DNA of 64,000 bases from Actinomycetota bacterium. Lineage in GTDB: Bacteria > Actinomycetota > Acidimicrobiia > Acidimicrobiales > JAJPHE01. The stretch is taken from NCBI GenBank assembly GCA_027315345.1, contig DAHUYE010000083.1, forward strand, positions 1 to 64,000. The letters are read 5' to 3'. Below are positions 2 to 6,493 of this stretch, in pieces; position 1 is the first letter of the stretch, and every line of letters starts with the position of its first letter. Under the pieces are notes generated by a model. That model was not told the DNA's origin. It made no database searches and worked only from the letters and a program-made list of their open reading frames with translations. The position numbers and the translations under genes were made by a program.

Positions 2-1474
2 GGGGTGCGGGCCGACCTGTCCCATCTCCTGGCCGAGCCGGAGTCGGTGGGGGCCGAGTTGGTCCGCACCGACCGGGGCGGGGACATCACCTATCACGGC
101 CCGGGCCAGCTAGTCGGGTACCCGATCCTGGACGTGCCCTCGGTTCCAGGCGCCGTTCCCGCTCATGTGCATGGGGTTGAGCAGGTGGTCATCGACACCC
201 TGGCCGACTTCGGGCTGGTGGCGGGGCGGCTAGAGGGTTACCCCGGGGTGTGGGTGGACCCGGCCGGAGCGGAGCCTCGCAAGATCGCCGCCGTCGGCAT
301 TCGGATCACTCGGGAGCGCTCCATGCACGGATTCGCTCTCAACGTCGATCCGGACATGGCCATGTTCGGCCACATCGTGCCGTGCGGTATCGCCGATCGG
401 CCGGTGACGTCCGTGGCGGCGGAGGGGCTCCGGGTCGGCATGAAGGAGGTGGTGGCGGCCCTGACGGTTCAGGCCGCCCGCCATTGGGGTCCGGCGGCGG
501 CGGTGGCCGAGGCGGCTTGGACGCTGCCGGCCGCGCCTGCCCGTCCAACCCCGGGCCGCGCCGACTCCCCGGGGGCGGTGGCGCTCAGCGACCGCAAGCC
601 GTCGTGGCTGCGGGTGAAGGCGGACCTGGGCCCGGACTACCGCCGTATCCGCTCGGTCATGCGCAGCCACGAGCTCGTCACCGTGTGCGAGGAGGCGGGC
701 TGTCCTAACAGTTTCGAGTGCTGGGCCGATGGCACCGCCACCTTCATGATCAACGGGGAACGCTGCACCCGGGCCTGCGGGTTCTGCCTGGTCGACACCC
801 GCCGGCCGGCGCCGCCCGACCCGGACGAGCCCCAGCGGGTGGCCGAGGCGGCCGCCGGTATGGGCCTGGCCCACGTGGTCGTCACGGCCGTAGCCCGGGA
901 CGACCTGGCCGACGGGGGAGCGGCCGGCTTCGCGGCCACCATCGCCGCCATCCGCCGGCTGCGGCCCGGGACGAGCGTGGAGGTTCTGATCCCGGACTGT
1001 AAAGGTGACCCGGTCGCGCTCGAGGCCATCTTCGCCGCCCGGCCCGATGTGTTGAACCACAACCTGGAGACGGTCCTTCGTCTCCAGCGGGCGGTACGGC
1101 CTTCGGCCTCCTATGCCCGCAGCCTGGCCGTGCTGGCCCGGGCCAAGGCGGCCGGCCTCACCGTCAAGTCGGGTCTCATCCTCGGCCTGGGCGAGACGGC
1201 CGGGGAGGTCGAACAGGCCCTTTGCGACCTGCGCTCGGTCGGGGTGGACATCGTGACCATGGGCCAGTACCTGCGGCCCACCCGGGCCCATCTTCCGGTG
1301 GCCCGGTGGTGGACGCCGGCCGAGATCGACGCCCTGGGCGACGCCGCCCGGGCCCTGGGCTTCGCCCACGTGGAGGCATCCCCGCTGACCCGGTCCAGCT
1401 ACCACGCCCGCCAGGGGGCCGTCGCCGCTTCGGGACTCACACCCGTCTCCCTGCTTTCCCGGAGCGGGGGGTGA
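2..1474 (+). CDS. lipBA: LipB-LipA fusion: octanoyltransferase / lipoyl synthase (5' partial)
   Basis: One uninterrupted frame carries two lipoate-assembly enzymes. Counting from the GTG at 5, residues 1-175 are LipB, which moves octanoate from acyl carrier protein to lipoyl domains; its catalytic Lys (residue 93, in RKIAAVG) and Cys (residue 127, in VPCGIADRP) are present. After an Ala/Pro-rich linker of about 20 residues, residues 192-489 are LipA, the radical-SAM enzyme that inserts two sulfurs. It shows the auxiliary cluster C228-x4-C233-x5-C239 and the radical-SAM triad C254-x3-C258-x2-C261. The usual LipB N-terminus is missing, so the gene begins upstream of the window and the GTG at 5 is internal. 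LipB and LipA are normally separate, so the fusion is unusual. A GTG at 578 could serve as a separate in-frame LipA start, but no stop separates the two parts. Confidence 0.93.
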   Translation, partial: GVRADLSHLLAEPESVGAELVRTDRGGDITYHGPGQLVGYPILDVPSVPGAVPAHVHGVEQVVIDTLADFGLVAGRLEGYPGVWVDPAGAEPRKIAAVGIRITRERSMHGFALNVDPDMAMFGHIVPCGIADRPVTSVAAEGLRVGMKEVVAALTVQAARHWGPAAAVAEAAWTLPAAPARPTPGRADSPGAVALSDRKPSWLRVKADLGPDYRRIRSVMRSHELVTVCEEAGCPNSFECWADGTATFMINGERCTRACGFCLVDTRRPAPPDPDEPQRVAEAAAGMGLAHVVVTAVARDDLADGGAAGFAATIAAIRRLRPGTSVEVLIPDCKGDPVALEAIFAARPDVLNHNLETVLRLQRAVRPSASYARSLAVLARAKAAGLTVKSGLILGLGETAGEVEQALCDLRSVGVDIVTMGQYLRPTRAHLPVARWWTPAEIDALGDAARALGFAHVEASPLTRSSYHARQGAVAASGLTPVSLLSRSGG

Positions 1475-2580
1475 GCGCCCGCCGGGAGCGCATGGACCGG
1501 GTCCGCTCGGCCATGGCCGCCGCCGGGGTCGACGCGCTGCTGCTCTCTCTGGGGGCCGACCTGCCCTGGCTCACCGGTTACGAGGCCATGCCCCTGGAGC
1601 GCCTGACCATGCTGGTCCTCCCCTCCGACGGGGCGGGGACCCTGGTGGTGCCCCGGCTGGAGGCGCCCCGGGTGAGGGAGGACGCTGATCTGTTCGCCCT
1701 GCGCCCCTGGGCCGAGACCGAGGACCCCTTCGCTCTGGTGGCCGGGCTGGTGGGCGGGCGCCGGTGCCTGGCCGTGTCCGACCGGGCCTGGTCCTCGGCG
1801 CTGCTGCGTCTGCAGTCGGACCTCCCCCACGCCACGTGGGCCCCGTCCTCGGTCGTGACCGGTCCGGTGCGGGCCGTCAAGGACGAGGCCGAGGTGGCCT
1901 GCCTCCGGGCCGCCGCCCAGGCCGCCGACCGGGTGGCCGTCGCCCTCCAGGCCGGGGAGGTCCCCCTTATCGGGCGGACCGAGGCGGCTGTCTCGGCCGA
2001 GATCGGCGCCCGCCTCCGGGCCGAGGGCCACAGCCGGGTCAATTTCGCCATCGTCGGCTCCGGACCCAACTCGGCCAGCCCCCACCACGAGCCGGGGGAG
2101 CGGGTCATCAACCCCGGCGAAATGGTCGTCTGCGACTTCGGCGGCACCCTCTCCCTGGACGGTGGTCCCGGCTACTGCTCCGACATCACCCGGACGGTGG
2201 TCACTGGGTCTCCCACCGCCGAGATGACCGACCTCTACGACGTGCTCCACGCCGCCCAGGCGGCGGCGGTGGCGGCCGCGGTATCGGGCGCCACCTGCCA
2301 GGACGTGGACCGGGCCGCCCGCCGGCCCATCACCGAGGCCGGCTACGGGGACGCCTTCATCCACCGGACCGGGCACGGGATCGGCCTGGAGGAGCACGAG
2401 GACCCCTACGTGGTGGAGGGCAACGCCACGCCGCTGGCCCCCGGCCACGCCTTTTCCGTCGAGCCCGGCATCTACCTGGCCGGACGCTTCGGGGCCCGGC
2501 TGGAGGACATCGTGGTGGCCGCCGAGGGTGGCCCCGACCCCCTGAACCGGGCCGACCACGGCCTGGCCGAGGTGGGCTGA
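1471..2580 (+). CDS. M24 family metallopeptidase (Xaa-Pro aminopeptidase/dipeptidase type)
   Basis: Cytoplasmic peptidase of about 369 residues that would release an N-terminal residue before proline or split Xaa-Pro dipeptides. The N-terminal half is the creatinase-like domain (contains LPWLTGYEAMPLERL). The C-terminal half is the pita-bread catalytic domain with the five expected metal ligands: Asp in VCDFGG, Asp in SDITRT, His in RTGHGIG, Glu in VEPGIY and Glu in RLEDI. The GTG start shares bases with the upstream TGA (GTGA overlap), so translation is probably coupled to the lipoate fusion gene. A longer in-frame reading upstream of 1471 is antisense-like noise. Exact substrate (XPP versus prolidase) cannot be read from the sequence. 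Confidence 0.93.
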   Translation: MSARRERMDRVRSAMAAAGVDALLLSLGADLPWLTGYEAMPLERLTMLVLPSDGAGTLVVPRLEAPRVREDADLFALRPWAETEDPFALVAGLVGGRRCLAVSDRAWSSALLRLQSDLPHATWAPSSVVTGPVRAVKDEAEVACLRAAAQAADRVAVALQAGEVPLIGRTEAAVSAEIGARLRAEGHSRVNFAIVGSGPNSASPHHEPGERVINPGEMVVCDFGGTLSLDGGPGYCSDITRTVVTGSPTAEMTDLYDVLHAAQAAAVAAAVSGATCQDVDRAARRPITEAGYGDAFIHRTGHGIGLEEHEDPYVVEGNATPLAPGHAFSVEPGIYLAGRFGARLEDIVVAAEGGPDPLNRADHGLAEVG

Positions 2581-3016: not shown

Positions 3017-6000
3017 TTAACGGGCCACGAAGTACTTGGCCTGGGGGTGGTGGCAGATGATGGCCAGGGTGGACTGCTCGGGATGGAGCTGGAACCCGTC
3101 GCTGACCTCGACGCCGATGCGGTCGGCCTCGAGTAGTTCAGCCACCTTGGCGTTGTCCTCCAGGTCCGGGCAGGCCGGGTAGCCCCACGAATACCGACCG
3201 CCCCGGTACTGCTGGCGGAACAGGCCGCCCAGGCTGGGTCCGTCCTCGTCCACGAAGCCCCATTCTTCCCGGATGCGCTTGTGCCACAGCTCGGCCAGGG
3301 CCTCGGCCATCTCCACCGACAGCCCGTGCAACATCAGGTAGTCCTGGTATTTGTTCTCGGCGAAGAGACGGGCCGTCTCCTCCGACGCCCTCGACCCCAT
3401 GGTCACCAGGTGGAAGGCGGCCCAGTCCTCCTGCCCGGACGCCGTCGAACGGAAGAAGTCGGCGATGCAGAGGAACGGCTCCCGGCGCTGGCGGGGGAAG
3501 GAGAAACGCATCCGCTCGCCCGTGCGGGACTCGTCCTTCCACACGATCAGGTCGTTGCCCTCGGCGTTGACGGCGAAGTACCCGTACGCCACGGCCGGCA
3601 CCAGCACCCCTCCGGCCTTGGCCTTGTCCAACTCCGCCCGCAGGCTGGGCCGGATGCGGGCCTTGAAGTCCCCGTCCGCCTCCCCCTTCTCGGGCCGGAA
3701 GCCCCACTGGTTGCGGAACAGTGAGGTCTCGTTGATGAAGCCGGCCACCTCATCCACGGAGATTCCCTTGACCACGCGGCTGCCGACGAAGGGCGGCGTA
3801 TACACCCGATTGTCCTCCGCCACCTCGGGGGAGCGGGCTGGGAGTGCCTCATCCGGCAGGGCGGTGGCGGCGTCGGTCTCGCTCTTGCGGGGGGGCAGGA
3901 TCCGCTCCGACAGCTTGCGCCCGAAGTCGGCGTCCTCCTCCCCGGTGCGCTTGAGTTCCATGAGCCGGTCCATGGTGCGCAGCCCCTCGAAGGCGTCCCG
4001 GCCGTAGAACAGGCGGCCTTCGTAGACCTGGCGCAGGTCACGTTCGACATAGGTGCGGGTCAGGGCCGCTCCACCCAACAGGACGGGCATGGCCGACAAG
4101 CCCCGGCTGTTCAGTTCCTCCAGGTTCTCGCGCATGATCAGGGTGCTCTTGACCAGCAGACCGCTCATGCCGATGGCGTCGGCGCCCACCTCCTCGGCCT
4201 TGGCCAGGATGTCGGCCAGGGGCACCTTTATGCCGAGGTTGTGGACCTGGTAGCCGTTGTTGGTGAGGATGATGTCGACCAGGTTCTTACCGATGTCATG
4301 GACGTCGCCCTTGACGGTGGCCAGAACGACCTTGCCCTTACCGCCGTCCCCGGTCTTCTCCATGTGCGGTTCGAGATAGGCCACGGCCGTCTTCATGGTC
4401 TCGGCCGACTGCAGCACGAACGGCAGCTGCATCTGGCCTGACCCGAACAGCTCTCCGACCACCTTCATGCCCTCGAGCAGGACATCGTTGACAATGGCCA
4501 GAGCCGCCAGCCCGTTGCTCAGGGCCTCCTCGAGATCCTCGGTCAGGCCGTTGCGGTCCCCGTCGATGATGCGGGCCTTCAGCCGTTCCTCCACGGGCCA
4601 GCCGCTGCGATCCTCCTTTTCGTGGGCGCCACTGGTAACCCCTTCGAACAGACCCAGGAGCTCCTGCAACGGGTCGTAGCCCTCCCGGCGGCGGTCGTAG
4701 ATCAGATCCAGGCACACCTCGACGTGGTGGGGATCGATGCGGTTGAGAGGCATGATCCGGGCCGGGCTGACCATGGCCGCGTCCAAGCCCGCTTCCTGAG
4801 CCTCGTGCAGGAAGACCGAGTTGAGGACATGACGGGCCGCCGGGTTGAGTCCGAAGGAGACGTTGGACACACCCAGGCTGGTGTGCACGCCCGGCAGCTC
4901 CGCCTTGATCCGGCGAATTCCCTCGATGGTCTCGAAGGCATCCTTCCGGCTCTCCTCCATGCCGGTGGCGATGGTGAGGGTGTTGGTGTCGAAGAACAGG
5001 TCGGTCGGATCGATCCCGTAGCGCTCCACGGCCAGATCCCGGATGCGACGGGCTATCTCCAGCTTGCGATCGGCCGTGCGGGCCTGGCCGGTCTCATCGA
5101 TGCACATGCAGACCACGGCGGCGCCGTAGTCCCGGGCCAGGCTCATGACCCGGTCGAAGCGCTTGCCCTCCTCCTCGCCCTCCTCCAGGTTGGCGGAGTT
5201 GAGGATGGCCTTTCCCCCGAAGCGCTGCAGTCCGGCCTCGACCACCTCCGGCTCGGTGGAGTCCAACATGATCGGCGCCGTGGACTGGGTGGCGAAGAGG
5301 GCTGCCACCATGTCCATGTCGGCCCGCCCGTCCCGACCGGTGTAGTCGACGCAGAGGTCGAGGGTGTGGGCCCCCTCCTTGATCTGGTCCCGGGCGATCT
5401 CGGCGCAGGTGTCCAGGTCGGCCTCGATCATCGCCTCCCGGAACTTCTTGCCTCCGGTGGCGTTGGCCCGCTCTCCCACGATCAGCACCGAGGGCGACTG
5501 GTCGTAGGGGACGTGGCTGTACAGCGAGGCCAGTCCCGGTTCGGGCTGGATCTGGGGCCGGGCCGGCTCCAGGCTGGCGCAGGCGTCTACCACCGCCTTG
5601 AGATGCTCGGGCGTCGTTCCGCAGCAGCCGCCCACCACCGAGACCCCCAACTCGGTGATGAACCGGGCATGGTGCTCGGCCAGCTGATCCGGGGTCAGGT
5701 CGTAATGGGTCTGACCGTCCACCACCGAGGGCAGGCCGGCGTTGGGCAGGCAGGAGATGGGTACCGGGCTGTGCTGGGACAGATAGCGGAGGTGTTCGCC
5801 CATCTCCCTGGGACCGGTGGCGCAGTTGAGCCCGATGACGTCGGGGCGCAGAGCGGCCAGGGCGGTGAGAGCGGCGCCGATCTCCGATCCCACCAGCATG
5901 CGCCCAGTGGTCTCCATGGTCACCTGGACCTGGATGGGCACCTCCCGGCCGGTGGCGCCCATGGCCCGGCGGCAGGCGATGATGCCGGCCTTGGCCGCCA

Positions 6001-6493
6001 GCAGGTCGTACTGGGTCTCCACCAGCAGCAGGTCGACCCCGCCCTCGATCAGGGCGGCGGCCTGGACCTCGTAGGCGTCGCGCAACTCGGCGAAGGAGAT
6101 GTGTCCCAGCGACGGAAGCTTCGTCCCCGGCCCCATCGAACCGGCCACCCAGCGGGGGCGGCCCGGAGTGGAGTAGGAGCCGGCCACCTCCCGGGCCAGG
6201 CGGGCGGCGGCCAGATTCAGCTCATAGGCCCGATCGGCTATCCCGTACTCGTTGAGGACGGTGGCGAAGGCGCCGAAAGTGTGGGTCTCGATCACGTCGA
6301 CGCCCACGTCCAGGAAGGCCCGGTGCACATCGGCGGCCACGTCCGGTCGGGTCACCACCAGCATCTCGTTGCAGCCCTCGAGCGCTTCCCCCCCGAAATC
6401 GTCCGCGGTCAGGTTGGCGGCCTGGAAGCTGGTCCCCGAGGCGCCGTCGAATATGACGACCCGCTGACGCACGGCTTCCAGGTAGGAGGACAC
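3017..6493 (-). CDS. metH: Cobalamin-dependent methionine synthase
   Basis: Full-length (1158 residues) MetH, which transfers the methyl group of methyltetrahydrofolate to homocysteine through cobalamin. Domains in order: homocysteine-binding barrel with zinc ligands C224, C290 and C291; pterin-binding barrel (from about 330); cap helices and B12-binding domain with the DxHxxG motif at about 730-735 (H732 is the expected lower axial ligand); and the SAM-binding reactivation domain at the C-terminus (GYPACPD, HPEQSTLA). GTG start at 6493 follows the box TAGCCT by 7 nt, suggesting a leaderless mRNA. It is divergent from a cobalamin adenosyltransferase only 64 bp away, so two B12 genes share one short control region. 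AhcY at 47899 completes the methyl cycle. Confidence 0.98.
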   Translation of the reverse strand: MSSYLEAVRQRVVIFDGASGTSFQAANLTADDFGGEALEGCNEMLVVTRPDVAADVHRAFLDVGVDVIETHTFGAFATVLNEYGIADRAYELNLAAARLAREVAGSYSTPGRPRWVAGSMGPGTKLPSLGHISFAELRDAYEVQAAALIEGGVDLLLVETQYDLLAAKAGIIACRRAMGATGREVPIQVQVTMETTGRMLVGSEIGAALTALAALRPDVIGLNCATGPREMGEHLRYLSQHSPVPISCLPNAGLPSVVDGQTHYDLTPDQLAEHHARFITELGVSVVGGCCGTTPEHLKAVVDACASLEPARPQIQPEPGLASLYSHVPYDQSPSVLIVGERANATGGKKFREAMIEADLDTCAEIARDQIKEGAHTLDLCVDYTGRDGRADMDMVAALFATQSTAPIMLDSTEPEVVEAGLQRFGGKAILNSANLEEGEEEGKRFDRVMSLARDYGAAVVCMCIDETGQARTADRKLEIARRIRDLAVERYGIDPTDLFFDTNTLTIATGMEESRKDAFETIEGIRRIKAELPGVHTSLGVSNVSFGLNPAARHVLNSVFLHEAQEAGLDAAMVSPARIMPLNRIDPHHVEVCLDLIYDRRREGYDPLQELLGLFEGVTSGAHEKEDRSGWPVEERLKARIIDGDRNGLTEDLEEALSNGLAALAIVNDVLLEGMKVVGELFGSGQMQLPFVLQSAETMKTAVAYLEPHMEKTGDGGKGKVVLATVKGDVHDIGKNLVDIILTNNGYQVHNLGIKVPLADILAKAEEVGADAIGMSGLLVKSTLIMRENLEELNSRGLSAMPVLLGGAALTRTYVERDLRQVYEGRLFYGRDAFEGLRTMDRLMELKRTGEEDADFGRKLSERILPPRKSETDAATALPDEALPARSPEVAEDNRVYTPPFVGSRVVKGISVDEVAGFINETSLFRNQWGFRPEKGEADGDFKARIRPSLRAELDKAKAGGVLVPAVAYGYFAVNAEGNDLIVWKDESRTGERMRFSFPRQRREPFLCIADFFRSTASGQEDWAAFHLVTMGSRASEETARLFAENKYQDYLMLHGLSVEMAEALAELWHKRIREEWGFVDEDGPSLGGLFRQQYRGGRYSWGYPACPDLEDNAKVAELLEADRIGVEVSDGFQLHPEQSTLAIICHHPQAKYFVAR

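Follow-up and report, generated by a model that had tools for sequence, protein, structure and literature searches.

A fused octanoyltransferase and lipoyl synthase, LipBA, in Acidimicrobiia

LipB and LipA, the octanoyltransferase and the lipoyl synthase, are usually separate enzymes, and both the enzymes and their pathway are textbook knowledge. The window analysed here, a stretch of 64,000 bases (C47:1-64000) from a genome of 3.84 Mb in 106 contigs, 97.72% complete and with 1.75% contamination, opens with a gene that appears to encode both as one chain, which raises the question of whether such a fusion is genuine, how widely it is shared and what it could bring to lipoate assembly. The preliminary description had placed the two enzymes in a single polypeptide, and this reading holds: the fused gene, lipBA, occupies a stop-free frame of 490 codons at 2-1474 of the forward strand, where all its features lie, with its stop at 1472-1474, and both domains score above the curated NCBIfam cut-offs. 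The LipB domain (residues 1-165 of the frame, 2-496) matches TIGR00214 with 130.8 bits against a cut-off of 83.55 over residues 4-140, and PF21948, and the LipA domain (residues 197-475, 590-1426) matches TIGR00510 with 336.8 bits against 310.25 over residues 197-471, together with PF16881 and PF04055; the Pfam matches on the fused frame are LplA-B_cat at 14-155, LIAS_N at 198-234 and Radical_SAM at 253-407.

The catalytic residues said to lie together in this frame are also all present. LipB is a Cys/Lys dyad enzyme, according to the title of a reference in PMC12246082, and the dyad is found in LipBA as Lys94 (281-283) and Cys128 (383-385), each kept in 81/81 aligned rows and in 64/65 rows of a second alignment, in which the remaining row is truncated. 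The LipA motifs given in an excerpt of PMC12246082 (CX4CX5C, CX3CX2C and RSSY) are likewise complete in the window protein, as the auxiliary cluster cysteines Cys229, Cys234 and Cys240 (686-721) and the radical SAM cluster cysteines Cys255, Cys259 and Cys262 (764-787), all of them in 81/81 rows and again wherever a row of the second alignment is untruncated, and as the C-terminal RSSY at residues 464-467 (1391-1402), whose Ser is a ligand of the auxiliary cluster. In the 81-row alignment, the Arg and the second Ser of this motif are found in 79 rows, with two gapped, and the last position is Tyr in 71 and His in eight; RSSH is also read instead of RSSY in the fused proteins L018, L019, and L190. 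The domains are joined by an interdomain linker of about 31 residues (166-196; 497-589). It had been described as short, which is true of the window but does not extend to its relatives, where the stretch aligned to residues 165-196 varies from 21 to 90 residues over 81 sequences, and its mean conservation is 0.38 vs 0.75 and 0.79 for the domains.

Base 2 cannot stand as the start of the gene: contig C47 itself begins at window base 1, and the 5' end of lipBA, about 46 N-terminal codons, lies beyond it. This length comes from homology with a second lipBA copy, which begins with GTG at 12970 of contig C101 and runs to the end of that contig. This copy (L003:13108-14388) aligns with window positions 2-1282 over 1281 bases without gaps and at 82% nucleotide identity, and their 232 differences are distributed 45/39/148 over codon positions 1/2/3, so the fused frame is under purifying selection. 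C101 ends inside its copy and holds the upstream half of the operon, and C47 starts inside its own and holds the downstream half; at their opposite ends, C101 and C47 have ordinary overlaps with other contigs, of 147 and 141 bases. A second close copy of the C101 genes for E2 and aceE was not found in the genome, and the two lipBA copies could stem either from a tandem duplication or from a bin that mixes two strains. Besides them, the genome yielded no further LipA or LipB match; it does encode a third protein of LplA/LipB fold, on contig C50, and thus lipoylation may not depend on LipBA alone. The pattern recurs in the metagenome-assembled genome ZJ5.bin57, where the ends of two contigs overlap within lipBA (L104:5906-7369 and L045:1-1464), 91% identical and ungapped.

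The same fusion was then looked for in relatives, a check that had been suggested at the outset together with a watch for stops or frameshifts between the domains, and the join was found intact. In 80/80 named loci (81/81 rows with the window), a single stop-free segment holds the catalytic Lys and Cys of LipB and all six cluster cysteines of LipA. These loci are the best 80 of 202 confirmed relatives from a scan of named contigs, and the set favours fusions, since the scan used the fused protein as its query and retained the best matches. Their record titles are Acidimicrobiales, Acidimicrobiaceae, Acidimicrobiia, Actinobacteria, Actinomycetes or Actinomycetota, along with Microthrix, Ferrimicrobium, Poriferisocius, one plain "bacterium" and two Acidobacteria/Acidobacteriota, and from these titles the group carrying the fusion would be the class Acidimicrobiia. 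Matches were found in 56/59 genomes of a relatives search and in 141/148 class genomes of a class-wide search; among class genomes at least 90% complete, 106/110 have a match and four have none. A direct check of the DNA, which is less biased, covered 62 distinct class genomes (the 29 best-scoring loci of the relatives search, plus 30 and 3 more), and the gene is fused in 60 of them, the other two, G153 (L185) and G191 (L186), being cut by contig ends. The checked genomes span 24/26 family codes of the class outside the order, with f79 truncated and f83 without a match, and single-contig assemblies such as G008, G034, and G060 also carry the fusion. Four genomes whose best matches had spanned LipA only (G004, G050, G013, and G054; L124 and L128-L130) pass the pattern test for fused motifs as well. 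The LipBA fusion is, on these samples, a near-universal trait of the class and not a local oddity.

All these fusion counts were taken from stop-free segments in the fetched DNA and from alignments and not from motif patterns. An early pattern count of 38/80 named loci, in which the Lys pattern was too narrow, was superseded by alignment, as was a later count of 67/92, from which L186, with no LipA segment, had been left out. The 25 misses of the latter comprise 13 unfused loci from outside the class, L150, the truncated L185, five f61 members, L164 (varied Lys motif), and four with ACG for PCG. L150, on contig C83 of G106, is a second, unfused lipB-lipA pair that this genome has beside its fused gene. 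The f61 members, with small genomes of about 1 Mb (L144, L145, L187-L189), keep the fusion and vary the HGPGQ of LipB (HGDGQ, HGEGQ, and similar).

Outside the class, 33 of 113 phylum genomes with a match were sampled, picked for long frames or adjacent genes, and the fusion was found in 0/32 assessable genomes, L217 having no LipA motif by pattern. Two apparent fusions, G228 and G302, with search frame lengths of 604 and 624, were rejected on account of in-frame TAA stops between lipB and lipA. In 20/33 of the non-class genomes, lipB precedes lipA on the same strand within 700 bases, so that a single fusion event in such a neighbouring pair is the probable origin of lipBA. The gene order of G228 (E2, lipB, lipA, with the TAA between the last two) is as expected for the state before such a fusion. 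Both gene trees come from short tree searches: in the LipA tree (45 rows) the fused rows form one side of one branch, with an SH-aLRT of 84, and the LipB tree (44 rows) needs four changes of the fused label, of which the starred branches force only one. A single origin is favoured by these data, short of proof.

The genes around lipBA place the enzyme beside the gene of its own substrate, in the usual order lpd-E2-lipBA-peptidase. In named loci whose flanks are long enough, the E2 gene immediately precedes lipBA in 57/63, lpd is upstream in 53/56 and a PepQ-like gene is downstream in 50/70. In the window, this conserved neighbour is an Xaa-Pro peptidase-like gene at 1471..2580 of the forward strand, whose GTG start overlaps the lipBA stop by four bases (1471-1474) and which matches NF040821 (PepQ-like) and NF007310 (aminopeptidase), both below cut-off. 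The C101 copy of lipBA overlaps the stop of its E2 gene, whose product is nearest to SucB_Actino TIGR02927 (391 bits vs a cut-off of 423), and the C101 lpd passes TIGR01350. GcvH, encoded on contig C43, is another possible substrate for lipoylation. Further along the window, an ORF of 1158 residues on the reverse strand (3017-6493) looks, by eye, like a cobalamin-dependent methionine synthase.

As to function, LipBA would be a bifunctional enzyme of lipoyl assembly in which two consecutive steps are physically tied and which goes back to a neighbouring lipB-lipA pair close to the root of the class, a reading to which a probability of roughly 0.88 is given. Excerpts of PMC3917532 and PMC12246082 describe LipB as moving octanoate from ACP to a lysine of the lipoyl domain and LipA as adding sulfur to the octanoyl group, still bound to the protein, at C6 and C8, sacrificing its auxiliary cluster in the process. 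In LipBA, the N-terminal LipB domain would take octanoate from octanoyl-ACP onto its Cys and transfer it to a lipoyl-domain lysine, in an oxoacid dehydrogenase E2 or in GcvH, after which the C-terminal LipA domain, by radical SAM chemistry, would add one sulfur each at C6 and C8 at the cost of its auxiliary cluster. The tie between the steps probably lets one lipoyl domain meet both active sites of one molecule, and the most likely origin of the fusion is a single event close to the root of the class, in which the stop codon separating neighbouring lipB and lipA genes of an oxoacid dehydrogenase operon was lost. What the two domains catalyse, and in which order, is read from their protein families; the single origin and the benefit of the fusion are inferred. 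The preliminary description had cautioned that LipA acts on the protein-bound lipoyl domain, in agreement with an excerpt of PMC12246082 on the protein-bound octanoyl group, and therefore any hand-over would be of the lipoyl domain as a whole and of no free intermediate. Since both steps take place on the same protein-bound group, the only help from the fusion would be to hold the lipoyl domain close to the two sites, and channelling between the LipB and LipA domains may be supposed in this sense.

How closely the two domains cooperate is where the alternatives diverge. The plainest of them, whose chances fall a little short of even, is that the linker is only a tether between independent domains, and that the fusion just secures equal amounts of both without any hand-over of the lipoyl domain. 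The variability of the linker in length and sequence fits this view, as does the fact that the 32 assessed non-class genomes manage with LipB and LipA as separate proteins. Nevertheless, AlphaFold2 models built on 33-row alignments reach a pTM of 0.91 for L037 and 0.84 for L078, values implying that the domains of these two fused proteins are placed confidently relative to each other. A protein with two floating domains normally yields a lower pTM, and thus a defined LipB-LipA arrangement is likely in the models, which, as read from pTM, may hint at a fixed one in the protein. A bolder alternative, possible but doubtful, is that LipBA is a pre-assembled machine with docked domains, in which the lipoyl domain would go from the LipB site to the LipA site without leaving the enzyme. 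If so, the interface would be a natural model of a transient LipB-LipA complex in bacteria where the enzymes are separate, and LipBA, encoded beside E2, would lipoylate its substrate as that substrate is made.

The remaining alternatives fare worse. It is improbable that the fused chain is cleaved, or that additional free LipA is made from an internal start, with separate enzymes used after all: the model linkers are partly disordered (residues 258-317 of L078 have a pLDDT below 50), which makes cleavage possible, and GTG codons are abundant in this DNA of 71% GC, but the class as a whole retains the stop-free join, which would be needless for two products. Still less credible is a LipB domain that only recruits the substrate, with attachment left to another enzyme; the LplA/LipB-fold protein on C50 could be a candidate, yet no untruncated row lacks the Lys/Cys pair. 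An artefact, in which a sequencing indel or a misassembly joined two genes, might be suspected from a contig end inside the gene and a fragmented assembly, but its probability is negligible, and it is refuted by the relatives, given the ungapped second copy and the same join in dozens of independent genomes, including single-contig assemblies.

Thus, the LipBA fusion is real and conserved, combining ordinary chemistry with an unusual architecture. A natural single chain of LipB and LipA implies that both steps can share one substrate and would offer one construct for studying both steps with one lipoyl domain. The fusion also appears to mark the class Acidimicrobiia as a whole, and it may be under-annotated where the gene bears just the name "lipoyl synthase". 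Moreover, if the predicted fixed arrangement is true, the cooperation of LipA and LipB in other bacteria becomes a directly testable question.

No LipB-LipA fusion model was among the NCBIfam scan matches, and a literature search restricted to open-licence papers returned no description of such a fusion, which may be described elsewhere; the excerpts of PMC10332631, PMC3904984, PMC3917532, and PMC4398509 do not mention it. Among solved structures, Foldseek against the PDB gives the M. tuberculosis proteins LipB 1w66 and LipA 5exi/5exk as the nearest folds (50% and 53% identity), which are two proteins there and one here; each domain is matched apart, none of the 50 matches listed is an entry covering both domains, and the best query-normalised TM-score is 0.52. 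By sequence, the nearest solved relatives are the lipoyl synthases 5exi and 4u0o (residues 194-473) and LipB 1w66 (residues 17-155). Other fusions are known in lipoate assembly: NF053790 (LplA_LipA_fuse, bifunctional lipoate--protein ligase/lipoyl synthase) has, like LipBA, an attachment enzyme N-terminal to LipA, but this enzyme is an LplA ligase there and LipB here, and the window protein matches the model over the LipA part only, with 342.2 bits against a cut-off of 800. The LplA-LplB fusions and the LipS1/S2 pathway, according to an excerpt of PMC10332631, also serve lipoate assembly, some of them as fused proteins, with other ligases and synthases than those of LipBA. The Shewanella lipBA operon, in the excerpt of PMC4398509, consists of two genes for two proteins, whereas LipBA is one polypeptide; the separate LipB (TIGR00214) and LipA (TIGR00510) families have the same domains and catalytic residues as LipBA, encoded there by two genes as two proteins and carried here by a single chain.
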